From positions 1-21,834 of IMG/VR virus record IMGVR_UViG_3300009285_001661: a stretch of 21,834 bases of DNA, one strand, 5' to 3'. The notes beneath the pieces were generated by a model. That model saw nothing but the letters and a program-made list of their open reading frames with translations. It was not told the DNA's origin and made no database searches. This document shows, in pieces, positions 1-17,439 of the stretch. This stretch comes from a virus. Every line of letters starts with the position of its first letter. Within the stretch, counting starts at the first letter, position 1. A program made the translations under genes and the position numbers.

Positions 1-2
1 GG

Positions 3-131
3 GCGGCGGTTTATATCCTATCGAGTGGAACCCCGGTATCAGGGCAGGCGGTCGTAATGGGATCTAACGTTGTCATGGGGATTGCGCCGGATTCTACAGA
101 TAGGCTTTGGTGCAGGGGGTATGAAACGTGA
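3..131 (+). CDS. C-terminal end of an unidentified phage gene (5' cut by window edge)
   Basis: An open frame runs from the window edge to a TGA at 129-131 and gives about 42 residues ending in LWCRGYET. Its stop overlaps the GTG start of the next gene by four bases (GTGA), the same coupling seen throughout this phage, which argues that it is real. The visible part is short, beta-prone and rich in Gly, Val and Ser, with a repeated VVMG. I do not recognise the family; its position just upstream of a fibre-like gene suggests a virion structural protein, which is inference only. Confidence 0.55.
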   Translation, partial: AAVYILSSGTPVSGQAVVMGSNVVMGIAPDSTDRLWCRGYET

Positions 132-1546
132 AAAGACTGCTCGCCTTCTTAACTCTGTTTTTCGCTCTGGCAGGAGTGGCGGACGCTCAAATCCGTTTCC
201 GCAAGGAACAGCAACACGCCGAAACTCTTTATAGTTCCAGCGCATCACCGACGATCACTTCCCTCTGGACCTTTAGCGGAGGAATTACCGTCGCCACCGG
301 GACGGCCTTTTTTGATGATAGCATTTTCGTTCTGCGGGACGACCTCGACAATAGCAAACGGGCGCAGTTCCAGGTATCAGGAGTAACCACTGGAACCACT
401 CGGACATTCACCTTTCCCGATGTAACGGGAAGCATACCCACCGGGACAGGAACAGCTAATCAAGTTGCTTATTGGTCTGCGACAAGCATTTTAACAGCCA
501 CAAGCGGTTTTACCTTCACCGGATCTACCGCCAGTATCGGGGTAGTGTCATCGGCAACCAACGCGTTGACAGTACCTGATTTGGGCGTGCGACCTGGATA
601 CGCTGGCACGGATGCCACCATCACCTTAGACCCGCCGCTGTCTGCTAATAGCTGGTTTCTAAGATCGCACAATACCGGGGGACGCTTTGCGATTATTGCA
701 ACAACTGGACCGCTTGAAAACCTGACCGTACTGCAAACGGGAGAGGTGGGCATAGGGGTTGCCGCTCCAACGTCTGGGGTTAGCTTGGAAGTCGCTGATT
801 CCATAAAAATGCCATACGACGCTACTTTTTTAGGAAAGATGGCGGCAAGCACCGAGTGGACGGTCTTTCAAACGAGCATAACCGGAGTTGGAGACGGATT
901 AACGATTAACCCATCGAACGGGAATACTGTTTTCAACACGACGAGCGGCAACGTCGGTATTGGGCTAGTTGCGCCTATTGGCAAACTCGACGTATCGACG
1001 GCGACAAGAAGTGGGACTCAAGCCGTTGCCCCATCTGTTTATTTTACGGCTGGCATGGGGACTGGTCAAACAGGATATGCGGCGGGAAATGTGGAGTTAC
1101 GCCATTCTAACGCAACGCAGGGAATAGGTTTTGGTTATAATACTATCTATCAGGCTGGATCTGACACGAACGCAGCATTGAACCTGCTGTCTAAGGGCAC
1201 TAGCCCAATAACGCTCAATGCCTATGCCTACAGCACCGGCAATGTCGGTATCGGAACGGCGGCTAACATCAATCAATCTCTCACTTTTGCCAACACCGGG
1301 ACGATAGGTTTTGTCAACGCGGCGGTAAATACCAGCTATCAGGCCATCACGATGAACGCCTCAAACGAAATCATCTATGGAAATACGACCACCACGCAGA
1401 GGATTCGCACGTTAGGAGGGACGCCGGGAACCCTCGGCAATGGTGATGTCTGGTGGGAAGTGTCAGGGACTACACCTAATCGGTTAGTCTGTCAGAAGAT
1501 GTACGATGGGAGCGCAACGCGGGATATCTCATGTATCGTTTACTAG
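128..1546 (+). CDS. Tail-fibre-like virion protein with N-terminal signal peptide
   Basis: The 472-residue protein starts at GTG, four bases into the previous gene. Residues 1-20 are a classical Sec signal peptide: Lys-Arg, a hydrophobic core, then ADA before Q21. The rest is Ser/Thr/Gly-rich and beta-prone. It carries fibre hallmarks: a segment near residues 70-105 of the form RDDLDNSK...TTGTTRTFTFPD, and three later copies of a VGIG motif (VGIGVAAPT, NVGIGLVAP, NVGIGTAAN) like the repeated knob motifs of phage tail fibres and S74-type fibres. No S74 intramolecular chaperone is visible; the C-terminus ends in two Cys within a short domain. Likely role: host recognition or a tail or head appendage. 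The signal peptide is odd for a virion protein, which normally assembles in the cytoplasm. Confidence 0.75.
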   Translation: MKRLLAFLTLFFALAGVADAQIRFRKEQQHAETLYSSSASPTITSLWTFSGGITVATGTAFFDDSIFVLRDDLDNSKRAQFQVSGVTTGTTRTFTFPDVTGSIPTGTGTANQVAYWSATSILTATSGFTFTGSTASIGVVSSATNALTVPDLGVRPGYAGTDATITLDPPLSANSWFLRSHNTGGRFAIIATTGPLENLTVLQTGEVGIGVAAPTSGVSLEVADSIKMPYDATFLGKMAASTEWTVFQTSITGVGDGLTINPSNGNTVFNTTSGNVGIGLVAPIGKLDVSTATRSGTQAVAPSVYFTAGMGTGQTGYAAGNVELRHSNATQGIGFGYNTIYQAGSDTNAALNLLSKGTSPITLNAYAYSTGNVGIGTAANINQSLTFANTGTIGFVNAAVNTSYQAITMNASNEIIYGNTTTTQRIRTLGGTPGTLGNGDVWWEVSGTTPNRLVCQKMYDGSATRDISCIVY

Positions 1547-1554
1547 GGGGAACC

Positions 1555-1911
1555 ATGAAAAAACTGATTATCGTCCTATTGATTCTTTCTTTTGGAACTC
1601 CTGCGTTTACTCAGATGAAGAAGTGTATTGGCGGAACCCCGACTATGGGGGCTTGTGCAACTTCTCCTTCTGTAGCGGGCACGGATTCGTGCGGTACAAT
1701 AACGATAGGAACTTCTGTTGCCAATAGTGTTTGCGTGCTGAATTTTAGCCAGACTTACGGCTCTGCTCCAAGCTGTAGGGCAAATCTGAACACCAGATCA
1801 GGCGGCAACACTTTTTTAGTAATAGATACTTCAACTACGACGGTCACTTTTACTGCCGGAGCGCAACCAGAAGCCGGGCAGAAAATTCACTTCGATTGCG
1901 ATGTTCCATAA
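1555..1911 (+). CDS. Small secreted Cys-rich protein with fibre-type C-terminal domain
   Basis: 118 residues. The ATG at 1555 is chosen over an in-frame ATG at 1531 because it follows AGGGGGAACC and opens directly with a Sec signal peptide (MKKLIIVLLILSF, likely cut near PAFTQ). The mature part has six Cys, with SPSVAGTDSCGTITIG, then CVLNF, a SAPSC strand, a Thr-rich TTTVTFT strand and a final HFDC. This order resembles a small beta domain that I recall at the ends of many phage fibre or hypothetical proteins (GTD..GTITIG ... C.v.F ... aP.C); that link is from memory. Even Cys content and export suggest disulphides. It probably accompanies the fibre encoded just upstream; function unproven. 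Confidence 0.65.
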   Translation: MKKLIIVLLILSFGTPAFTQMKKCIGGTPTMGACATSPSVAGTDSCGTITIGTSVANSVCVLNFSQTYGSAPSCRANLNTRSGGNTFLVIDTSTTTVTFTAGAQPEAGQKIHFDCDVP

Positions 1912-1923
1912 GGAGATGAGAAA

Positions 1924-2235
1924 ATGAAAATTTTGATCCTATTATTACTTTTGATTGCAATTCCAGCCTTAGCCGTAGAACCCGGAACCTATGACCCGGC
2001 AACCGGACAGGCGACTTTTACCTTATCCCCACAAGAAAGGGCTGACTTAAAACGCGCCGCCAAACAGTTTAAGACCCCGGAAGCCGAATTGCTCAGGCAA
2101 ACGAATGAGAATTGGCTGAAGCACGTCAGGGAAACGATGACAAAGATGAGGGAGCAGAATCTAAGAGAGCGATACGAAAAACTCACGCCGGATCAGCGAA
2201 AGACGGTTGACGACGTGATGGGGCCGATACCGTAA
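1924..2235 (+). CDS. Secreted charged helical protein, unknown function
   Basis: 103 residues with a strong signal peptide: MKILILLLLLIAIPALA, likely cut after ALA. The mature part is very polar and predicted helical (repeated E, K, R, Q), with a possible coiled coil at residues 35-95, and no Cys. AAGGAGATGAGAAA gives a good ribosome binding site. It is the third successive gene with an export signal, within a run that continues directly into virion genes. I do not recognise the family. It could be a periplasmic chaperone or adaptor for the two secreted neighbours, or a virion-associated protein; neither is shown. Confidence 0.6.
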   Translation: MKILILLLLLIAIPALAVEPGTYDPATGQATFTLSPQERADLKRAAKQFKTPEAELLRQTNENWLKHVRETMTKMREQNLRERYEKLTPDQRKTVDDVMGPIP

Positions 2236-2245
2236 GGGGGGAAAG

Positions 2246-4198
2246 ATGGATGCACGTAATGACCTAGTAATGGGAATTGAACCCGATTGGTTGATGAGAG
2301 GATTACCTAATCCTAATGTCGCACCGACTCAGCCCGTAAACGAACCCACCTTTCCCGGCACAACGACACCGATAGGCAATATTGCCCGAAGCGCGTTGTC
2401 GAATTACAGCGACTACCGGAACAGTTTAGGTATTCCACGCATAGGCAACACGCGGGTAGCGGATTTGATGCGGGGTAGGGCAGAACGGACGGCAGAAGGG
2501 GAGATAGACCGCTATACGGGCATTCGGAATAAATTGGGAGCACCACGACTCCAGGACACCGAGCTTGCCAAGATCATTAACCGGACCCTTACGAACCCGG
2601 AAGAGTCCCCCGGCTTTAAGCTCGGCCAGAACATGCTTAACCAGAGTCGGACCACGCAGCGGGAGAATTTGAACACGATCCTAGAGAAATCCGGCCTGGC
2701 CGCGTCACCGTCTGGAATAGGCATAAAGGCTCTGAATATGCTGAACCGGCAGGGTGACGTAGAGATGGGGAATCTCGCGCTCACAGAAGGCAGTAACGCC
2801 ATTAACCGATCAATGCAGTTTCAGCCGATGGTGGAAAATGCCTTTAACACCGAACTGGACCGTGGATTAGGGGCAGAGCAGCAAGGTGTAACCGATCTTT
2901 ACAACCTGGAACGGTCAAGCCAAGGGGATTTCCAGAACGAACTAGGCAAGGCTCTTTCTCAAGAAGAACTGGCAAAAAAAAGGGATCTACAGACAAAACT
3001 GCAAGATATGAAAAATCAGGGTGCATTAGGAGGGGCGGCAGGAGACCTTCTTTCTAAGGCACTACCTCAGATCCTTCAGGCGTTGGGATTAGGAATAGCC
3101 CCAAATGCAATAGAACAGCAACTTGGCTTGCCTGCCGGAACCCTGCTAAGCCTTCTGGGGAAAACTGTAGGGGCGGCGGGAGGAGCGTTAGGAGGCTTAA
3201 TCGGATCGGGAGTAAAGGGATTAGGGAGTCTTTTTGGCGGTTTATTCGGTGGTGGCGATGGTGGTGGCGATTTTGTTCCCGATCCGTGGGGAACGCAACC
3301 AGGGGATCTTAGTGGCATTGGCCCCGATCCAACAGGCGGAACAGGTGGCGACTTTACCCCTGACCCCTGGGGGACCGGGGCCGGCGACCTTGACTGGCTC
3401 TCAGGAGGAGGTGGGGATTTTGTCCCCGATACTTGGGGGGCCGAGGCCGGCGACCTTGACTGGCTCTCAAATTTTTCTAATGCCAGCACCGGAGCGGCGG
3501 GTGTTGGCGCTGAAGCAGCCGCAGGGTTCGGGGAATTTACCCCAGAAATACTGGAAGGAATAGAGGCTGGTTATGGCGGCATGGTAGGGGCAGGGGGAAG
3601 CGGATTAGGAGGATTAGCCAGCCTTGCTACCCCTTTTGGTATCGTAGGAGGCGGATTAGCGTTAGGGAAACTAATGGCGAAATTGTTCGGTTTTGAGTCT
3701 GGCGGGAGAAAATGGGAAGAAAAGGCCGCTGGCTGGCAGGATGAATATGCAGGAAAGATCAAGGCGAATCCGCAAGCCTGGGTACAGGAGTTTGAAAACG
3801 CGTATGGCCCGGAGGGTAAACAGGCGGCTATAGAAGCCCTGCAAGGCAAATTGACCCCTCAGCGGGTAAAGGAACTGTTTGGCTTTGCCGATATACCGGA
3901 GTTTTTCCAGAACTTCTCTTTAGGCCAGAATAAGAAATACGGCAATCTGTCCCAAGCGGTAGCCCTGGAAGGCAGCAGGGGGGAATTGTCGAACTTTAAG
4001 AACCTAGCCCCAAGCTATCAGGCGGCTCGGGCTCAACCCCCGATTGACCTGACTCAAGACATAGAGACAGGGACTTGGGGGAACGTCTTTGGCCGGGACG
4101 ACGTTACTAAGGGGCGCGGAGTAACCTTACCTCCAGGGTGGGAATTGACAGGCTCTAAAGACCCCTGGGAAGCTATCCGGCGGGTTCAAGGAGAGTAA
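2246..4198 (+). CDS. Large Gly-rich virion protein, probable ejection (internal virion) protein
   Basis: 650 residues, preceded by AAGGGGGGAAAG. The N-terminal third is helical and holds an internal duplication (residues 54-76 and 90-112). A Gly/Ala/Leu-rich stretch follows at about 260-340 with apolar segments able to lie in a membrane, then three acidic DF.PD.WG repeats at 339-409, another Gly-rich apolar stretch at 440-482 (LASLATPFGIVGGGLALG), and a helical C-terminus ending soon after LPPGWE. This build of long helices, glycine zippers and repeats, in a run of three such genes before the lysis genes, is typical of podovirus DNA-ejection proteins (compare T7 gp14-gp16 or P22 gp7/gp20/gp16 by position only). 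No enzymatic motif is seen. Exact family unknown. Confidence 0.6.
   Translation: MDARNDLVMGIEPDWLMRGLPNPNVAPTQPVNEPTFPGTTTPIGNIARSALSNYSDYRNSLGIPRIGNTRVADLMRGRAERTAEGEIDRYTGIRNKLGAPRLQDTELAKIINRTLTNPEESPGFKLGQNMLNQSRTTQRENLNTILEKSGLAASPSGIGIKALNMLNRQGDVEMGNLALTEGSNAINRSMQFQPMVENAFNTELDRGLGAEQQGVTDLYNLERSSQGDFQNELGKALSQEELAKKRDLQTKLQDMKNQGALGGAAGDLLSKALPQILQALGLGIAPNAIEQQLGLPAGTLLSLLGKTVGAAGGALGGLIGSGVKGLGSLFGGLFGGGDGGGDFVPDPWGTQPGDLSGIGPDPTGGTGGDFTPDPWGTGAGDLDWLSGGGGDFVPDTWGAEAGDLDWLSNFSNASTGAAGVGAEAAAGFGEFTPEILEGIEAGYGGMVGAGGSGLGGLASLATPFGIVGGGLALGKLMAKLFGFESGGRKWEEKAAGWQDEYAGKIKANPQAWVQEFENAYGPEGKQAAIEALQGKLTPQRVKELFGFADIPEFFQNFSLGQNKKYGNLSQAVALEGSRGELSNFKNLAPSYQAARAQPPIDLTQDIETGTWGNVFGRDDVTKGRGVTLPPGWELTGSKDPWEAIRRVQGE
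2405..2581 (+). repeat. Internal duplication in the 650-aa virion protein
   Basis: Residues 54-76 and 90-112 align without gaps: YSDYRNSLGIPRIGNTRVAD against YTGIRNKLGAPRLQDTELAK. They share Y, R-N, L-G, P-R and a following hydrophobic pattern, with a 36-residue period. The DNA copies have diverged, so the duplication is old and kept at the protein level. Confidence 0.6.
3260..3472 (+). repeat. Three imperfect G-D-F-x-P-D-x-W-G repeats in the 650-aa virion protein
   Basis: The units begin near residues 339, 367 and 389. All contain GGDF, PD, WG and GDL; the second and third also share GDLDWLS. The DNA of the last two is close (GCCGGCGACCTTGACTGGCT is shared), which points to a recent tandem duplication. 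The acidic, Trp-containing units resemble binding or linker repeats rather than an enzyme. Confidence 0.75.
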
Positions 4199-4201
4199 AT
4201 T

Positions 4202-5233
4202 ATGGCTGGATTTGGATACGGATTTGGTACGGGTCTCATGGGCGGGATGAGTAAGAATATCGACGAGGACCGGAAGAACCGCCTAATAGAAGCTCAGCTT
4301 ATGGGCGATATTCAGGGATATCAGGCCGACCTACCCCCCGATCAGCAGACCACGATACCCACCACAACACGCCCTACAAGCGGCCTGGGGGGTATTCTAG
4401 GGGCTTTTGGCCTTGGGGGGGACAGAACCCCCGACATGGAGGCTATGATAGCCAAGCGGGCAATGGCCGCCCGGCAATCGGCGGTTTATAAGCAGGCTAT
4501 GGCGGTGGCGGCAAAATTGACCGACCAGATCGCTAAGGGAGAGTTGGATGTTGAAGATCCAAACGTACAGGAGTTAATAAATAAGTTGCCTGCAGCGGCT
4601 AGGCTGCCGGTCCAAGCGGCGGTCAATCAGCAGAAGAAGCAAAAGGCTCAAAGGAATATCTTGCAGGGGATAGTCGGCACAGGCAGGGTAGATGTCCCTG
4701 GATATGAGGATACAGAAGCGGGTATGTCGCGGGGACCGACTACCAGGGAGGCAACACGGCCAGATGTGCTTGGAGCTATGTTCGGGGTAAAGGGGCTGGA
4801 AGATGAGGCGGCGAAAGATTACTTGTATAGGCCGCCCCCTGATCCTACTTCCTTAATCCAGCCAGGTCCGGGCACCCCAGCGGCTATTGTGAACCGGAGG
4901 ACGGGGGTAGTGAATCCATTGCAAGGGACGCAGAGGCCAAGTCCGGCGGTCGATCCGGTGATGAACGAATACCGGAATCTCAGAAATAAGCTGATGATGA
5001 ATCGCCTCAAAGGAGTAGAAACACCGAAAGATCGACAGCAGAGCTTATTGAGATTGATTGCACTAGCGCAAACCCTCAAAAAGAACGCCGACCCTGGCTC
5101 ACCGGAAGAGGCTCAATATGAGGGTGACTTAAGACGGTATCTGTCCGAACTGAACCAAGCCCACCCATCCCCATCCACCCCAGCACAACCCGGCGGGGGT
5201 GGATTACCCCAAGGATGGAGATTTAGGGACTAA
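4202..5233 (+). CDS. Probable virion/ejection protein, mid-size partner
   Basis: 343 residues. The ribosome site AAGGAGAG lies in the end of the previous gene, three bases separate the two genes, and the stop overlaps the next start (TAATG), so all three large genes look translationally coupled. The N-terminus is Gly/Met-rich and apolar (GFGYGFGTGLMGGM), followed by a helical region (residues 75-155), a Pro-rich linker (about 205-245), a second helical block (245-310), and a Pro-rich tail ending in LPQGWRFRD. No known catalytic motif. Role as a virion-internal protein is inferred from its neighbours and composition. Confidence 0.55.
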   Translation: MAGFGYGFGTGLMGGMSKNIDEDRKNRLIEAQLMGDIQGYQADLPPDQQTTIPTTTRPTSGLGGILGAFGLGGDRTPDMEAMIAKRAMAARQSAVYKQAMAVAAKLTDQIAKGELDVEDPNVQELINKLPAAARLPVQAAVNQQKKQKAQRNILQGIVGTGRVDVPGYEDTEAGMSRGPTTREATRPDVLGAMFGVKGLEDEAAKDYLYRPPPDPTSLIQPGPGTPAAIVNRRTGVVNPLQGTQRPSPAVDPVMNEYRNLRNKLMMNRLKGVETPKDRQQSLLRLIALAQTLKKNADPGSPEEAQYEGDLRRYLSELNQAHPSPSTPAQPGGGGLPQGWRFRD

Positions 5234-8200
5234 TGCCACCACAGTTGCGCCTCATAGAAAACGAGGATAGTAAGGAACAGGCGTTATGGAACCCTGAAAC
5301 GCAGAGCGTGTTTGATCCTAAAGATTCAAAAGTGGTTATCCATGAATCAGGCCAACAGGCTCTATTCGACCCCACAAGTCAGTCAATTATAGCCTACCTT
5401 CCAAGCTCTGTAGGACAAACACCGACATCGGTTGTTACCCAAGAGCACCCCGTCAAGTATGGGGGATCTAAGAAGGAAATTCTCCCCGAGGTTCAACCCC
5501 CGTCTGCGCTTCAGCGTCTTGCGATGGGGCCGGTGGGTACGGTAGTTGAGAAGGGATTAGAAGTTATTGCCAAGCCTGCGCAATTAGCAAATGAGTATCT
5601 TGCTAAACCTCTTACCCCTTTTCCTGAATTACTAAAGCCTGAAACATATATGCAAGAAGAAGGGGCCGTATTCCCAGAGTCCGAACGGCGCAAGATGGAA
5701 GCTATCAGTCAACCGCTTCCGGAGATTATGACTAAGCCGGTAATTGCAGCAGTGGATTTAGTAAGAAAAGCATCTCCGGAAGCCGCTAAGGTAATTGAAG
5801 ATACGATGGCGAATTACCCTGCTTTGCAGAAGTATGGTCCTATCCCTAAAATGTCCGACTTTGCAATGAAAATAAGGGAAGCAACTAAAGGAAAAATACC
5901 AGAAATCCAATCGGTAGAAGAATTAAAGGCGACACCGCCACGCAATTTTATAGAAGAGGCGAAGGCCAGACGAGCAGCAAGGGAATCTGAACCCGCTTTT
6001 GTTGAGACATTGAAAGAGGAACCTGCGCCAGTAGCCGAGGCTACGCCTCCCGTAGCCGAAGCGCCAAAGATCCGCGAACTCCGACCGGAAGAGCCGATTG
6101 AGGATATAAGGCCGGTAGAACGTGCGGAGGCGGAGGGTATCGTCAAGCCCCGCGTCGAACCGACTGAGGCCGGGATGCAGGGGGTATTGGCTGAGACGCC
6201 ACAACGGGAGACTCCCACCACAGCCCTTCGTACTAAAGCCAGACAGACTGAAAAACTGACTGATTTGGAGAAGGCTACTATTCCAGAGACACAGATGGAA
6301 CTAGCTGGTCAAGATAAGCCTATCCCCTCTAAAGGGCCATTAACTCCTGAAGAGATTGCCGCAGCCGACGAGATGAGACAGATACTTGGTGGAAAGAAGA
6401 GAACTCGTCGCCCACGCCTTGAGGACGAAGAGGTTGCCGCCTCCACTTTCATCCAGCGCCAAGGCGGAATGAATATCCCTGCAAAGTTAAAAGAAGAATT
6501 TGGCGCGTGGAATCGCTACCACAACCCGAAAGGTCTTGGAGTTGATGAAATGGCAGAGGCATTGCATGAGGCGGGGATTATTCCTGAGCCAACAATCAAT
6601 TCCATGTTGGAAGCGAAGGGGACGGGGAGAAGAACGGCTGGCGGTTTTGAGAAACAGCAAATGGCTGGATATGTTCAAGATAAGATCAATACGATTACTG
6701 AAACACCCGCAGAGCTTCAATACAAAGGGAAAACATATACCGAGGCAATCAAGGAAAAAGGGGGGATACGCCTAAAGGATGATGTTGATGTTGTCCTAAA
6801 GAAAGATGCCGACATTTTGAAAGTTGAGGAGAAGATACCGTTTGATGTGCCATTTGAAGAATCGTCGTTAAGTCAAGCCGACCTTGCCGCTCAAAAACTT
6901 TTCGGGACCCGTGGCGGTGCTCCGGGTGAACCAAGCGACATTCCCCCGCCAAAAAAACTAACTCCCTTAGAGAAAGAGATGGGTCATCCTGTCACGGAAA
7001 CGACCTTTGAAGGGATACCGAAAGGCGTAACAGGAAGCCGACTTGAGACCGGCACAACCAAACTCATCACCGAAGCCGGGATCGAAGCCTTCAAATCTTT
7101 GGGAAAAGAGCTTGAGCCGGACATTCCTGTAACAATTCAATTAGCCAGAGCCATGCAGAGAGGCGAATTGGATTTACGGGGCTTGGAACGGATATTGGAA
7201 AGTAAAGGCGTATCAAGAGAACAATTCATTGAGTCATTTATTACCACAGCGAGCAACGCAGGCAGGCAACTCTCACAGCTCGCCAAGGTCGTAAAGAGTT
7301 TAAAGAATGCGGATGCTGCCTTTGGAGAGATCGGAAAGCGACTTCCCCTTTATACCTCCATTTTGGAAGCTGGCAAAACTTTCATTGAAAAAGGAAAACT
7401 CAGTGTAGCCGAAGGCACTCAGCTTGGCCGTGATGTTATCGACTCAATCCGTTTGAACCTTTTCTCTGTAACGTCTTTTTCGCTGGACATGATCGGCAAC
7501 GCGACAGAAATAGGGGCGCAGATTGCGGGTGGTGTTGGCAAGGATTTAGTTCAAGTTGCCAAAGGTCATGTCAATTTTCCTAGTATTCAAGCGGTCATTA
7601 GAACCATAAAAGACCGACCCAGAGTAGCAGGTGTTGAGAAAGGTTTAGAATTAACAGCAATCGGGGAAAAGCTAAGGGGCGGTTTTCAGAAAGGTCCGGG
7701 GACTTTCACTCTACGCAGCAATGCAGCCAGTAAAGGACTGGACTATCTGGTAGGCAGCCCACTCTATCTTAAGGGCGTAATGGACACCGGAGCCAAGCGG
7801 TTCAGCGCCGCTATTAGCATCTGGCAAGACGCGATTATGTCGGCTAATTTGAAGGGACTAAAGGGCACAGAGAGACAGAAATTTTACGAACAGTTTTGGG
7901 AAGACCCGCCAAAGAGTGTAATTCAAAAAGCTATTAACGAGGGCAACAAAGCAGGATTTAACCGGACTCTTTCTAAAATAGAGGAAAAATACGCTAGTTC
8001 GACTACTGTTAAGTTGCTGGTTGATACATTTGGCCGGTGGCCGTGGCAGTTTACAAGGTGGGGTGCTGAGATGGTGGGATATAATCCAGAACTGTTCAAA
8101 GCCATACGACAAGGAAAGGCGAGCGCTGAGGACATTGCAGGATATTTGACAAAAACCGCATCCGGCTGGGGCGGGCTCTACTTAATAGATCGGGCCTTGT

Positions 8201-9096
8201 ATGACCACGTTGATTTCAACTCGATGGAATACGTCCACGCCGATGGCGACCGAACAAGGTTATCAAGCAGGGAACCCCTTGCGTCTGCTTTATGGCTCTT
8301 GGCGGTTATAAAGGGGGACGTGGAAAAAGCCAAAGGCGGATTTAAATTTGCCTCGGTTCCAGGGGCACAGCTTTTAGGTGAGCAAGGCACACCTGGCCTT
8401 TTAGGGGGAATAATAAAACAAGCGCAAGCCGCTATCTCGCGCAAAGGAGTTGACCCAAGAGGGTTATCGCGTGAACTGACAGGCTTTTTGAATCGACTTA
8501 TTCCAGGTCAAGCGATTCTCTCAGCAATCGAAAGCGTATTTGATCCGACATTACGTGAAGGCATCGGAGCCAATATCCCCGGAATATCTTCATTAAAACC
8601 AGCAGCAATTAACCCGGCTACTGGTAAACCGCTTATATCTCTTCAAGAAATACCAGGTACAGGCATCGAATTTCCGCAAATTGGGGGAGTTCCTATCCCT
8701 GGCGCAACGCGGAAACTTGATCCAGTTACTAAAATACTCTCTAAATTTGGGTTGCTGGTTTATAGGGGGCCACGACAACCCATAGCGGGAGTTCCGCCCG
8801 GAGAAGCACCAACAGAAGTTAGGCGGGAATGGCTAGAAGCATTTGGCAAAAGGAGGGAAAAGACTCTTTCGCCCTTGATTCCAAGAATAGAGGAAGCGGA
8901 AAGGTTGCATCCAAAGGAAATGCTACAAGGTGGCCGTTTGTATGAAGCATGGCGTAAGCGAATCCAGTTTTATGATTCGATAGCAGCGAAGCGAGCAACG
9001 GCAGAAGTAAATGCAAAACGTGGCACGCGGAAAAAATTACCGCGTCAGCCGACTCTGCGCGAACTAAGACGCCCGAATGCGGAGGCAGCCCCATGA
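5233..9096 (+). CDS. 1287-aa polyvalent-type virion protein, probably ejected with the DNA
   Basis: The largest gene here. Residues 15-55 hold two related short units (QALWNPETQSVFD, QALFDPTSQSIIA). Residues 240-400 are a disordered Pro/Glu/Lys linker. Residues 405-450 contain FIQRQGGMNIPAKL...GLGVDEMAEALHEAGII, which resembles a module I recall in phage polyvalent proteins. Residues 610-1020 are long helices with NLFSVTSFSLDMIGN (742-756) and WPWQFTRWGAE (936-946), like the helical membrane-active domains of large polyvalent proteins. The C-terminus (1190-1287) is strongly basic. Such proteins are thought to enter the host with phage DNA. No lytic transglycosylase or polymerase motif is visible. 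The start overlaps the upstream stop, and the stop overlaps the endolysin start (ATGA). Function beyond virion and ejection is inference. Confidence 0.6.
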   Translation: MPPQLRLIENEDSKEQALWNPETQSVFDPKDSKVVIHESGQQALFDPTSQSIIAYLPSSVGQTPTSVVTQEHPVKYGGSKKEILPEVQPPSALQRLAMGPVGTVVEKGLEVIAKPAQLANEYLAKPLTPFPELLKPETYMQEEGAVFPESERRKMEAISQPLPEIMTKPVIAAVDLVRKASPEAAKVIEDTMANYPALQKYGPIPKMSDFAMKIREATKGKIPEIQSVEELKATPPRNFIEEAKARRAARESEPAFVETLKEEPAPVAEATPPVAEAPKIRELRPEEPIEDIRPVERAEAEGIVKPRVEPTEAGMQGVLAETPQRETPTTALRTKARQTEKLTDLEKATIPETQMELAGQDKPIPSKGPLTPEEIAAADEMRQILGGKKRTRRPRLEDEEVAASTFIQRQGGMNIPAKLKEEFGAWNRYHNPKGLGVDEMAEALHEAGIIPEPTINSMLEAKGTGRRTAGGFEKQQMAGYVQDKINTITETPAELQYKGKTYTEAIKEKGGIRLKDDVDVVLKKDADILKVEEKIPFDVPFEESSLSQADLAAQKLFGTRGGAPGEPSDIPPPKKLTPLEKEMGHPVTETTFEGIPKGVTGSRLETGTTKLITEAGIEAFKSLGKELEPDIPVTIQLARAMQRGELDLRGLERILESKGVSREQFIESFITTASNAGRQLSQLAKVVKSLKNADAAFGEIGKRLPLYTSILEAGKTFIEKGKLSVAEGTQLGRDVIDSIRLNLFSVTSFSLDMIGNATEIGAQIAGGVGKDLVQVAKGHVNFPSIQAVIRTIKDRPRVAGVEKGLELTAIGEKLRGGFQKGPGTFTLRSNAASKGLDYLVGSPLYLKGVMDTGAKRFSAAISIWQDAIMSANLKGLKGTERQKFYEQFWEDPPKSVIQKAINEGNKAGFNRTLSKIEEKYASSTTVKLLVDTFGRWPWQFTRWGAEMVGYNPELFKAIRQGKASAEDIAGYLTKTASGWGGLYLIDRALYDHVDFNSMEYVHADGDRTRLSSREPLASALWLLAVIKGDVEKAKGGFKFASVPGAQLLGEQGTPGLLGGIIKQAQAAISRKGVDPRGLSRELTGFLNRLIPGQAILSAIESVFDPTLREGIGANIPGISSLKPAAINPATGKPLISLQEIPGTGIEFPQIGGVPIPGATRKLDPVTKILSKFGLLVYRGPRQPIAGVPPGEAPTEVRREWLEAFGKRREKTLSPLIPRIEEAERLHPKEMLQGGRLYEAWRKRIQFYDSIAAKRATAEVNAKRGTRKKLPRQPTLRELRRPNAEAAP

Positions 9097-9479
9097 TTAC
9101 CCTCCAGGAATATTTCCAAGGCCGGGATAAGCAATTCCCCGACGATCTGACAACGGATCTCCGCATTAACGCGCAGGAGACGGTTATCAGGATCAATACT
9201 TTACTCGGCTACTTTGGCGAGTCGCGGGATATTACTTCCGGTTGGCGGCCCCCGGCGGTAAACGCGGCGACAACGGGCGCGGCCCCACTATCCAAGCACA
9301 TGACCTGCCAGGCAATAGACGTAAAAGACCCCGAAGGCGACCTTGACGAATGGTGTTTGACTCATCCTGAGATATTGGGAAAGATCGGGCTTTGGCAAGA
9401 GCATCCCGCAAGCACAAAGGGCTGGACGCATCTACAAACAGTGTCACCGAAATCAGGTAAAAGGGTATTTTATCCGTAG
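9093..9479 (+). CDS. Endolysin: peptidoglycan peptidase of the M15 family
   Basis: 128 residues, the usual size for a single-domain phage M15_3-type peptidase. Visible motifs: SGWRPPAVN (49-57), SKHMTCQAIDV (67-77) with zinc ligands His69 and Asp76, the probable catalytic Glu103 in LWQEHP, and the third zinc ligand His113 in GWTHLQ. The family cuts peptide cross-links or stems in peptidoglycan (D-Ala-D-Ala carboxypeptidase or L-Ala-D-Glu peptidase type); the exact bond is not readable here. Gly in the SxHxxGxAxD signature is Cys72, which I believe occurs in a known phage subfamily. There is no signal peptide, so release would need a holin; two candidates follow. The start is coupled to the preceding virion gene by ATGA, so virion association is also possible. 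Confidence 0.9.
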   Translation: MITLQEYFQGRDKQFPDDLTTDLRINAQETVIRINTLLGYFGESRDITSGWRPPAVNAATTGAAPLSKHMTCQAIDVKDPEGDLDEWCLTHPEILGKIGLWQEHPASTKGWTHLQTVSPKSGKRVFYP

Positions 9480-9486
9480 GGGGTGG

Positions 9487-9705
9487 ATGATGGATTTATT
9501 AACCGAATCACAAGCCGTCGAACTGCTTATTCGTATCGACGAACGAACGAAAAAGATAGAAGAAAATCTGGCACTCTTTGAAGAACTCTACGTTACGCAC
9601 AAAGAATTTGCCCCGGTCAAACTTATTACCTACGGCCTTGTGACCCTTTGCATGACGGGACTCATTGGGGCATTATTGATGTTGATTTTGAGAAAGCCAT
9701 TTTAG
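9487..9705 (+). CDS. Small membrane protein, holin-associated type (N-terminal helix, C-terminal TM)
   Basis: 72 residues: a charged helix able to form a coiled coil (about 10-40), the segment THKEFAPVKLITYGLV, and one transmembrane helix (about 47-68) ending in RKPF. Small proteins with the THxEFxPVK..VYGLV pattern are common beside phage endolysins and resemble XhlA-like holin partners in build; I know the pattern from memory. Two adjacent ATG codons exist (9487 and 9490); the G-run after the preceding stop is spaced better for 9490, so the protein may be 71 residues. Likely role: membrane anchor or regulator of lysis. Confidence 0.7.
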   Translation: MMDLLTESQAVELLIRIDERTKKIEENLALFEELYVTHKEFAPVKLITYGLVTLCMTGLIGALLMLILRKPF

Positions 9706-9714
9706 GAGATAAGC

Positions 9715-10020
9715 ATGGACTTTGACATCACCAGTTTTATCACGGCGGAGACTCTAAAGACCTTCCCTATTCAGGTGCTTGTCATTGTTGCCCTGACGCA
9801 ACTTTGGAAGGAACTCCCTACAGGGAAGATCAATCCCGACCCGCGCTATATCGCATTGGCTGTAGCTGTCTGGATTCAGGTGGTGACGAACTTCCTGGAT
9901 GGGTATTTTCTCAAAGTGACGCTGGCTATCCTTAATGGAGGACTGATAACGCTCGTAAGCTGGAAGGGAGCGGAGATGTTGCGAGGGGTCGGCGTAAAAC
10001 AACCGGAAGTAAAACAATAA
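9715..10020 (+). CDS. Putative holin, multi-spanning membrane protein
   Basis: 101 residues with three hydrophobic segments: about 18-33 (IQVLVIVALTQLW), 46-63 (ALAVAVWIQVVTNFL) and 67-87 (VTLAILNGGLITLVSW), and a polar C-terminal tail. Size, membrane topology and place directly after the M15 peptidase fit a holin that releases the endolysin from the cytoplasm. AGGAGATAAGC supplies the ribosome site. Holins share little sequence, so this rests on topology and context; it could instead be a different small membrane protein. Confidence 0.6.
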   Translation: MDFDITSFITAETLKTFPIQVLVIVALTQLWKELPTGKINPDPRYIALAVAVWIQVVTNFLDGYFLKVTLAILNGGLITLVSWKGAEMLRGVGVKQPEVKQ

Positions 10021-10029
10021 GGAGGGTTT

Positions 10030-10221
10030 ATGAAGAAAATCTTACGTGGATTAGTTCTGATGATGACATTGGGCCTCAGCGGGTGTACGGGCCTGGAAAT
10101 GCTACTCGTAGGCGGTAGCATGGGTGGCCTTGGGGCGAGCTACTTAAAGCCCTGGATGGATAAGTACCTAACACCGGCACCGGCCCCAGTGCCGGACGAT
10201 CTCCCGATAGTCATAAAGTGA
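10030..10221 (+). CDS. Small lipoprotein with Pro-rich tail; spanin (Rz1-like) candidate
   Basis: 63 residues, preceded by AAGGAGGGTTT. It starts with a lipoprotein signal, MKKILRGLVLMMTLGLSGC, with lipobox LSGC and Cys at 19. A Gly-rich apolar middle (LLVGGSMGGLGASY) follows, then a Pro-rich tail (TPAPAPVPDDLPI). Small Pro-rich outer-membrane lipoproteins beside endolysin and holin genes are typical of the Rz1 half of spanins. No matching Rz-type inner-membrane partner with a long periplasmic coiled coil is seen, so a unimolecular spanin or an unrelated lipoprotein remains possible. Confidence 0.6.
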   Translation: MKKILRGLVLMMTLGLSGCTGLEMLLVGGSMGGLGASYLKPWMDKYLTPAPAPVPDDLPIVIK

Positions 10222-10369: not shown

Positions 10370-10741
10370 TCATTTATCTCTTCCTATTGTTTCATTTCCT
10401 ACCTGAATAGCATTCACAGTAGAGACCCAAAGCTTACATTCGGATAAATTTTTCAAAAGATTCCGTCGAGCCATAGCTTTATCATCACCTATCCCAATTA
10501 TCTCAGCAGAATCCTTTAAATGTAATTCGGCTCGAATCCAAGACCCAGACTGACTTTGAAAAAAAAAGTACGAAACTTCCAAACCTTTTTCTAAGTCGGT
10601 GGGAGTTATGCAGCCCTTTTGAATTGCTTTGTGAGTCAAGTCCATCTCGATTTTTGGGAGATCGTCCGGCGCTAGTTCGGTAGGCTCTTCCCCACAACTC
10701 GCTAAAAATAAGAATGTCAAAAAAGCGATTACAATTATCAT
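10370..10741 (-). CDS. Lipoprotein of unknown function, last gene of the leftward operon
   Basis: 123 residues. It opens with a hydrophobic segment and lipobox, MIIVIAFLTFLFLASC, with the lipid Cys at 16, though there is no basic residue before the core. The mature part is mixed alpha/beta, with a further Cys near GCITPTD and one near SECKLW. It starts within ATGA shared with the previous gene's stop. I do not recognise the family. As an early-operon envelope protein it might act in superinfection exclusion or another envelope change; that is a guess from location signals only. Confidence 0.6.
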   Translation of the reverse strand: MIIVIAFLTFLFLASCGEEPTELAPDDLPKIEMDLTHKAIQKGCITPTDLEKGLEVSYFFFQSQSGSWIRAELHLKDSAEIIGIGDDKAMARRNLLKNLSECKLWVSTVNAIQVGNETIGRDK

Positions 10742-10965
10742 TTATCTCCTTGCTCTCGGGCGAACGCGAAAAAATCCCTCGTTTTTCTAGCCTCCTCCTT
10801 TTCTGGTTGATCCAATTCCGGCAGTTCTGGCGCAACCCGAATTGTCAGAGTGTCTATCATGTCCCCGTTAAGACAAGAAGCGCTAATCGTTAGCGCTATC
10901 CCGCGAGAAAGTTTTTCCAGATCTACCTTCGTTAATCGCAAACTAAACCCATTTTCGACTCTCAT
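10738..10965 (-). CDS. Small hypothetical protein, Pro/Glu-rich tail
   Basis: 75 residues from the ATG at 10965, which overlaps the upstream stop as ATGA and sits after AGGAAACAACGAAA. A longer in-frame reading from 10995 would run deep into the upstream gene and is less likely. The first 50 residues look like a small beta-strand domain (FSLRLTKVDLEKLSRGIALT, then DTLTIRV), followed by a charged tail with LPELDQPEKEE. No family recognised. Confidence 0.6.
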   Translation of the reverse strand: MRVENGFSLRLTKVDLEKLSRGIALTISASCLNGDMIDTLTIRVAPELPELDQPEKEEARKTRDFFAFAREQGDK

Positions 10966-11648
10966 TTTCGTTGTTTCCTTCCTTCCTCCGTCCATTGTTG
11001 GCGGGTCCAGGAGTGGCGTTTATCAGAACTTAGACAATAGTCACAATGAGATAGGTTTGTGTTGTGAAGCTTGTAGAAGTATACTTCCATCACCTTTCCT
11101 CGTTCTTCATCCAAGGCATCTTGCAGCCGGTCCCTTTCCTCAATAATCTGGTAGATCAATTCGGTAGGTGATTCAGCAAACCCACGAGGGGAACTCCATG
11201 CAGACTGACAAGCTTTTTGTATTTCAGATAGACAGCAAAAGTAGCCATCGAAATTATCTAAGCCCTCCTCTCTCAAGGTAGGGGCTTGCTTATAAAGCGT
11301 GTCAAGAAAATCTGCCACATTATTACCCAATTCCAGCTTTTCTTTTGCTGCCCTTAACTCCGCCTTCAATCCCCTTACAGTGTTGTCATTAAAGCACCAC
11401 TTTTTTGCCTCTTTGAGTTCAGCCCTGAGAAGCACACACTCATCCCACGACTTTACCGACTCAGCATCCAGCCGGTTAGCATCGGCCTCTGCCATTTTGA
11501 GTTCGGCTTTGAGAGTAGATATTTGCTTTTTTAATTGCTGAACTTCAGTCAACCCTTCCTCCTCGCACCTTGGACATTCATCTACGTTACCAACATCCAT
11601 GTCCCACTCTCCATGTGTAAGGCAGTAACGGTGTATATAGCTGCTCAT
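10962..11648 (-). CDS. Coiled-coil protein with Cys/His knuckles
   Basis: 228 residues. The N-terminus has a C-x2-H then C-x2-C pair (Cys9, His12, Cys25, Cys28) that could bind zinc, then a long coiled coil (about 34-105, with KKQISTLKAELKMAEADA). A third CDYC with a nearby His lies near residue 205. Start and stop are both within ATGA overlaps, showing tight coupling to its neighbours. Phages often carry such zinc-knuckle plus coiled-coil proteins of unknown role; I cannot name a family. Confidence 0.65.
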   Translation of the reverse strand: MSSYIHRYCLTHGEWDMDVGNVDECPRCEEEGLTEVQQLKKQISTLKAELKMAEADANRLDAESVKSWDECVLLRAELKEAKKWCFNDNTVRGLKAELRAAKEKLELGNNVADFLDTLYKQAPTLREEGLDNFDGYFCCLSEIQKACQSAWSSPRGFAESPTELIYQIIEERDRLQDALDEERGKVMEVYFYKLHNTNLSHCDYCLSSDKRHSWTRQQWTEEGRKQRK

Positions 11649-16866: not shown

Positions 16867-17439
16867 CTATCCAAAAATTGTTTCCCCGTTCCACTTGCAG
16901 TTCGGGATAAGTGCCGGAATGTTGTCGTCCAGAACCTCCCGCTTCGCATCATAGTCGCCGCGCAGAAGTTCCCGCTTCGCCTCATAGTCGTCGCGCAGAA
17001 GTTCCCGCTTCGCCTCATAGTCGTCGCGCAGAAGTTTCCACTTCGCCCAATAGTCGCCGTCCAGAACCTTCCACTTCGCCTTATAGTCGCCGCGCAGAAG
17101 TTCCCACTTCGCATCATAGTCGCCGCGCAGAAGTTCCCACTTCGCATCATAGTCGCCGCGCAGAAGTTCCCACTTCGCCCAATAGTCGCCGTCCAGAACC
17201 TTCCACTTCGCCTCATAGTCGCCGCGCAGGTCGGTAGGCATAGGATAGATATGCTGTAACCGCGCAAGAATTTTCTCTGGCGATTCGTTTTTCGCTTTTT
17301 CGCGCAGGATATAACCTACCCTCTCCATTACGTTTGCCGATTTTTCTGCAATCGGCCCTTCGTGGTGCAAAAAGGTGAACCAGCCCGATTGTGGTCCCGC
17401 CTTGAGCCGGTCAACTTCGGCCTGAATTGCTTCGTTCAT
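16867..17439 (-). CDS. Hendecad-repeat coiled-coil protein upstream of the exonuclease
   Basis: 190 residues after AAGGGGGGAAT. Residues 1-66 form a helical domain with FLHHEGPIAEKSANVMERVG and LQHIYPMP; its pattern of H..P..E.....ER..YI...K resembles N-termini of phage proteins that carry similar repeats (from memory). Residues 71-169 are nine back-to-back 11-residue repeats, consensus LRGDYDAKWEL, with no gaps. Eleven-residue periodicity is typical of right-handed or weakly twisted coiled coils. The final 20 residues are a separate cap with NIPALIPNCKWNG. It sits eight bases before the exonuclease gene, so a recombination-linked or scaffold role is possible but unproven. Confidence 0.75.
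   Translation of the reverse strand: MNEAIQAEVDRLKAGPQSGWFTFLHHEGPIAEKSANVMERVGYILREKAKNESPEKILARLQHIYPMPTDLRGDYEAKWKVLDGDYWAKWELLRGDYDAKWELLRGDYDAKWELLRGDYKAKWKVLDGDYWAKWKLLRDDYEAKRELLRDDYEAKRELLRGDYDAKREVLDDNIPALIPNCKWNGETIFG
16933..17229 (-). repeat. Nine tandem 33-bp coding repeats
   Basis: The array is exactly 9 x 33 bp, read on the minus strand as L-R/D-G/D-D-Y-x-A-K-W/R-x-L/V. Units 1-2 and 5-6 share a longer pattern (a unit ending KV followed by LDGDYWAKW), showing that copies spread in pairs. Some units are nearly identical in DNA, a sign of recent expansion or homogenisation. Because each unit lacks stops in other frames, a long meaningless open frame appears on the plus strand. 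Confidence 0.9.

Follow-up and report, generated by a model that had tools for sequence, protein, structure and literature searches.

A late-operon trio of signal-bearing fibre-like proteins in an uncultured tailed phage and a putative class of exported, disulphide-bonded phage fibres

Three successive genes close to one end of a 21.8-kb virus record (the whole analyzed stretch of DNA, hereafter the window) were originally predicted to encode proteins with Sec signals inside a virion operon, which raises the question of whether a tailed phage exports fibre-like proteins and, if so, whether these proteins reach the virion. A near-identical 19.4-kb twin contig (L002) extends upstream of the window, and the two together give the following gene order: a tail-tube-B-like protein, signal-less fibre-like genes, the trio of 472, 118 and 103 aa, three large virion-type genes and, finally, the lysis genes. 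The relevant features of the window are these:

1..131, plus strand: 3' end of the preceding 78-aa fibre-like gene (complete in the twin contig, L002:3974-4210)
128..1546, plus strand: 472-aa exported fibre-like protein (predicted); GTG start, Shine-Dalgarno-like sequence, predicted signal 128-187 with cleavage ADA^Q
257..436, plus strand: fibre module DDxDNSKRAQFQxSGxTTxTTRTFTFPD within the 472-aa gene, common to signal-less fibres and the exported 1003-aa tailspike of L088
1085..1543, plus strand: C-terminal region of the 472-aa protein, holding both of its cysteines (455, 469) and conserved in a 519-aa protein of L070
1555..1911, plus strand: 118-aa exported receptor-tip-like protein (predicted) with six cysteines; Shine-Dalgarno-like sequence, predicted signal about 1555-1611
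1651..1905, plus strand: CGT domain of the 118-aa protein, all-beta with paired cysteines, corresponding to the C-terminal domain of exported tailspikes elsewhere
1924..2235, plus strand: 103-aa small exported protein (predicted), many charged residues, no Cys; Shine-Dalgarno-like sequence, predicted signal 1924-1974, ALA^V
2246..9096, plus strand: three virion-type genes (650, 343 and 1287 aa), no signals, no Cys, no weighty family matches
9093..10221, plus strand: lysis genes (M15 endolysin, two small holin-like proteins, small o-spanin-like lipoprotein), assigned by family matches and a lipobox

Signals were called by a custom rule for the n-, h- and c-regions, and all three products of the genes between 128 and 2235 carry them, as had been predicted: each has the positive n-region, hydrophobic h-region and small -3/-1 residues expected of Sec substrates of signal peptidase I. 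The N-termini are MKRLLAFLTLFFALAGVADA^Q for the 472-aa protein, MKKLIIVLLILSFGTPAFTQ for the 118-aa protein (predicted cleavage after TPA or AFT; APAFA^Q in the L070 ortholog) and MKILILLLLLIAIPALA^V for the 103-aa protein. The rule misplaced the cleavage of the 118-aa protein, calling it as a lipobox at residue 33, beyond the signal, although the presence of a signal is clear; none of the three window signals contains a lipobox with a Cys at +1. The 472-aa gene begins at a GTG that overlaps the TGA stop of the 78-aa gene, which argues that this start, and so the signal, is right; the overlap likely reflects translational coupling. For the 118-aa gene, an ATG at 1531 was rejected as the start because it lies inside the preceding gene, while the start at 1555 has a ribosome-binding site, and a Pfam Ibs_toxin match (E 0.017) was discarded as reflecting the hydrophobic signal alone.

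The background of the rule is 2.2-2.5% of the genes in control phage loci and 0.8% of shuffled proteins, so that at about 2.5% per gene three successive signals would be expected by chance at ~1.6e-5 per position. The genes that follow, anticipated to be ordinary virion proteins, indeed encode products of 650, 343 and 1287 aa that lack both signals and cysteines and thus serve as an internal control within the window; judging by their position, they probably are internal or ejection proteins. In the twin contig (L002 6325-8211), the counterpart of the 650-aa protein (2246-4198) lacks 22 aa owing to a repeat-unit indel within a GGGDFVPDPWGT-type repeat.

Similarity to fibres or spikes was detected for two members of the trio. 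The 472-aa protein matches phrog_13925 (2.9e-8) and phrog_692, a virion structural protein family (1.7e-6), and contains the common fibre module; the 118-aa protein, with cysteines at 24, 34, 46, 60, 74 and 115, is linked to receptor-binding tips by its structural model. The mature domain of the latter yields an all-beta AF2 model (pLDDT 85, pTM 0.75) for which Foldseek retrieved uncharacterized proteins of uncultured phages (E 8e-5) and, weakly, R-pyocin fibre tips, the receptor-binding domain of the Pam1 tailspike and the Helix pomatia agglutinin, with no match below E 0.16 in the PDB. The likeness to the H-type lectin, the R-pyocin tip and the Pam1 domain is one of all-beta, tip-like fold, and the 118-aa protein differs from all of these in its extra predicted disulphides. 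The single-sequence model of the 472-aa protein (pLDDT 35) was not used. The 103-aa protein shows two sub-cut-off matches to LTXXQ/Spy-like families (Metal_resist 0.016, DUF3106 0.038). None of the three proteins matches murein hydrolase or spanin families, and the lysis genes of the window are separate (9093-10221), with an endolysin that matches Peptidase_M15_3 (8.3e-8) and phrog_894 and an o-spanin-like lipoprotein with the lipobox SGC.

The check originally proposed, namely whether homologues keep the signals, gave a positive answer for all three proteins. A divergent viral contig, L070, encodes homologues of the entire trio, all signal-bearing, with the order of the last two swapped. Over 171 alignment columns, its 519-aa signal protein is 56% identical to the C-terminal portion of the 472-aa product, the last 100 residues included, whereas the N-terminal halves of the two fibres, both signal-bearing, do not align. 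The 116-aa L070 protein is 55% identical to the 118-aa protein, and a 94-aa product (10674-10958) is 31% identical to the 103-aa protein (blastp E 2e-9); the 94-aa gene overlaps other frames and its only Cys lies inside its signal. Several phages likewise encode a small, Cys-free signal protein close to the exported fibre (78, 94, 103 and 104 aa, the 94-aa one being Cys-free outside its signal). The L070 cassette is located between TailA-like and TailB-like genes, as opposed to the position of the window trio after tail-tube B, and the trio therefore has been moved or rearranged as a unit. The same phage encodes a signal-less, pectate-lyase-like tailspike (6706-8760, minus strand), which gives L070 a second candidate besides the exported fibre; in this phage and in the window, the exported proteins may be additions to a conventional fibre and not its substitute.

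Relatives of the CGT domain were collected by a DNA pattern derived from the domain motif and then by a profile. Among the 20 distinct viral proteins found in the fetched loci, 18 have a called signal and two (L083 and L149) a Sec-like one by eye. All 20 domains have an even Cys count, with columns pairing as 16/47 and 61/106, plus a pair (6/33) confined to the window. In L088, the domain forms the C-terminus of a signal-bearing tailspike of 1003 aa that also includes a tailspike-like middle part and the TTRTxTxPD module; the gene directly after it encodes a 78-aa signal protein. The window proteins thus resemble an exported fibre split into separate products. The TTRTFTFPD module does not by itself imply export, because dozens of other viral ORFs contain it and all of these lack a signal. 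Searches with tblastn of 50,697 phage records, using the 472-aa and 118-aa proteins, the CGT domain, the L072 493-aa spike and the L133 exported fibre, yielded no match.

L088 and L066 have in common the motif GDxxNACAxTxFV, which resembles a two-cysteine form of the widespread fibre motif GDNSTxIATTAFV. A scan of viral contigs for GDxxNACAxTxFV returned 74 stretches, nearly all with a signal directly upstream; of 65 different contexts, a signal within 70 aa was called in 60 and is visible by eye in four, the remaining one being cut off. The first Cys of the extended motif is present in 75/75 members, though only the second was part of the search pattern. Beyond the motif these proteins are variable (about 20% identity) and match tail fibre, tail spike, Collar and pectate-lyase families. 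Across 40 exported fibres with A^Q-type sites, A19 is nearly invariant and Q20 invariant. Many of the loci and L088 have MCP, Bbp16 and tail proteins in common, and the exported fibre gene is located between these; most exported fibre genes precede tail-protein genes, and several loci contain long runs of signal genes, 16% of the genes in these loci being called by the same rule. The 472-aa protein lacks the motif (CxxRPxGDxxNACAxTxFV) after its signal and is tied to this class only via the module and CGT domain common with L088. The relatives are metagenomic contigs, and cultured-phage collections contain almost no members.

Comparison with cultured phages indicates what sets these fibres apart. 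The epsilon15/BPP-1/BcepC6B-like podoviruses (GP7 capsid, Bbp16) have capsid, Bbp16-like and tail proteins homologous to those of the cassette relatives, and their fibres and spikes display Collar and pectate-lyase folds, as in these relatives. Only 1 of 126 genes in the cultured epsilon15/BPP-1-like relatives is called, a SAR-like endolysin, and the six examples have no signals in the virion operon; here, by contrast, the virion-operon fibre combines a signal with predicted disulphides. The conventional motif is the same, with the same spacing, but the exported version has a Cys pair for A and I, right after the signal. Cultured fibres with the motif (NPTAPTQ..GDNST.IATTAFV) from Dinoroseobacter, Rhizobium, Pseudomonas, Microcystis, cyanophage and Bordetella phages have neither Cys nor signal; the matches are weak (E 0.06-9), nearly all are to annotated fibres, and one signal call, in L198, is a weak hit of the rule.

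An even Cys count is found in 41 of the 48 exported fibres (p 6e-7) and 68 of the 74 other signal proteins (p 2e-14), compared to 168/395 non-signal genes of the same loci and 7/14 ordinary fibres; these p-values overstate independence given that the sequences are related. Furthermore, in one pair of homologues (35% identity) from different phages, the signal is of the Tat type in one member and of the Sec type in the other. The exception to the Cys pattern is the circular record MW202444 (L200/L203) from Manatee Spring, where a Cys-free motif and a signal are found on a 1253-aa fibre-like protein with an even Cys count. Considered together, the invariant motif cysteines, the Cys- and signal-free cultured fibres, the even Cys counts and the replacement of Sec by Tat are hard to explain otherwise than by export of the trio and class proteins into an oxidizing compartment, which we regard as strongly supported.

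Several observations on these loci deserve mention in their own right. In MW202444.1, the fibre-like gene (36356-40117) adjoins a gene annotated as a sep15/selm redox domain; two further signal proteins (40102-40476 and 1-315) are located by an M15 peptidase at the lysis end, and the phage has portal, tail and integrase genes. Tat signals (MSRISRRHLLRGG..., TRRGLLRAAG...) are present on lectin-like proteins in the virion operons of L126/G004 (7731-8576 and 10561-11517), L157 and L168, and one protein of this set has a Sec-signal homologue in G003. Podoviruses L066, L069, L082 and L088 encode, inside the exported cassette, a multi-pass protein that resembles Wzy_C (O-antigen ligase); in L088 it is located at ~2741-3841, and its Pfam match of 1.9e-5 is below the curated cut-off.

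We propose that the trio is a late cassette of exported receptor-binding parts that fold in the periplasm and join virions at lysis, a reading to which we assign a probability of roughly one half and which draws on conserved signals, paired cysteines, three-gene linkage, the fusion and the fibre identity of the homologues. Under this scenario, all three products (the 472-aa fibre, the tip-like domain of 118 aa and their 103-aa partner) would pass the inner membrane by way of Sec and lose their signals to signal peptidase I. In the periplasm, assuming that the host has one, cysteines would pair to form three disulphides in the 118-aa protein and one in the 472-aa protein. These two proteins would act together, since the single exported L088 tailspike holds both modules; the 103-aa protein might, at a guess, be a periplasmic chaperone or connector. 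The finished fibres would meet cytoplasm-assembled, fibreless virions at lysis and attach to them, so that the adsorption parts are added outside the cytoplasm.

Whether the exported proteins indeed become part of the particle is the point at which explanations diverge. The original prediction offered incorporation into virions or a role as surface decoys; its inference of export and oxidative folding of fibre-like proteins is strongly supported by the conserved signals, paired cysteines and Sec/Tat replacement, whereas virions are only tentatively favoured over decoys. In the second of these possibilities, the cassette would be exported but never join the particle, its products being envelope-bound or released fibre-like lectins or depolymerases that mask receptors against superinfection, keep progeny off debris or strip polysaccharide from the host or its neighbours. 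We consider this rather unlikely but far from negligible: the evidence of export fits it equally well, several related phages have many secreted lectin-like proteins and the Wzy_C-like protein in the same cassette, and L070 retains its separate signal-less spike. Nevertheless, the cassette belongs to the late virion operon, not an early one, and its proteins are not lipoproteins, in contrast to the known exclusion proteins. Moreover, the conserved N-terminal motif and variable C-termini seen here are characteristic of fibres anchored to a constant tail component. In the full annotation of the near-complete L088 genome, no other fibre- or spike-like gene was recognized: apart from the exported genes and two small unknowns, the virion module encodes portal, scaffold/protease, capsid, tail, internal virion and lysis proteins; five more near-complete genomes are apparently alike, as judged from listings of large genes that were not each annotated. 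Because no other fibre gene was recognized in these related genomes, we lean to virion receptor-binding proteins. Against incorporation count the cytoplasmic assembly of tailed phages, the signal-less fibre-like genes upstream in the window and the spike of L070, and no attachment domain of a known type was recognized in the window proteins.

Two further explanations appear improbable. The hydrophobic N-termini could act within the virion, as a tail anchor or in membrane insertion at entry, given that entry-related virion proteins with such termini exist; this has a slim chance in view of the canonical n/h/c structure with A^Q-type sites in 40 fibres, the restriction of paired cysteines to signal-bearing versions, the Sec/Tat replacement between homologues and the signals on unrelated neighbour genes. 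The chance is similarly slim that the genes are cargo or morons of bacterial origin, ordinary secreted host-surface proteins placed in the late operon by chance, even though bacterial secreted proteins are commonplace and the cassette content differs between close relatives. The homologues match phage tail families, the fibre gene occupies a fixed place in most loci, and scans of genome contigs gave no relative of the CGT domain and five matches to the NACA motif, of which four were not real and one was, on a Terriglobia MAG contig that also encodes a tail protein; among 396 genomes of the phylum of that MAG, the motif relative was found in that genome only.

Virion proteins made with Sec signals are familiar from filamentous phages, in which pIII and pVIII are assembled in the inner membrane during extrusion; the cassette resembles these in its Sec signals, but the phages here are tailed and have lysis modules. 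Phage proteins targeted to the envelope include the superinfection-exclusion lipoproteins Llp and Cor, and the trio, likewise envelope-directed, differs in being fibre-like, late and devoid of a lipobox. As a tentative generalization, held at slightly less than even odds, widespread but uncultured tailed phages (podoviruses from soil and water plus at least one siphovirus-like phage) may make Sec- or Tat-exported, disulphide-bonded periplasmic fibres that are attached at or after lysis. If true, virion assembly would be split between two compartments, a second assembly route for tailed phages; a fibre made in the cytoplasm cannot readily form disulphides. Exported oxidized fibres would bear on adsorption, superinfection, fibre sharing between particles in a lysate and the engineering of stable fibres. 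The class is common in environmental phages, and, on this view, a signal peptide on a phage gene would not be evidence against virion membership. We found no account of exported tail fibres, and no earlier description of this disulphide-bonded class, in the open-access full-text literature, most subscription journals being outside the search; the publications consulted apply signal prediction only to lysis or other proteins.

PADLOC found nothing. Elsewhere in the window, directly past the lysis genes on the minus strand, a 123-aa lipoprotein-like ORF (MIIVIAFLTFLFLASCGEE) is present at 10370-10741, and a 190-aa ORF at 16867-17439, also on the minus strand, consists mostly of about nine tandem 13-residue repeats (GDYDAKWELLR) that probably form a coiled coil.
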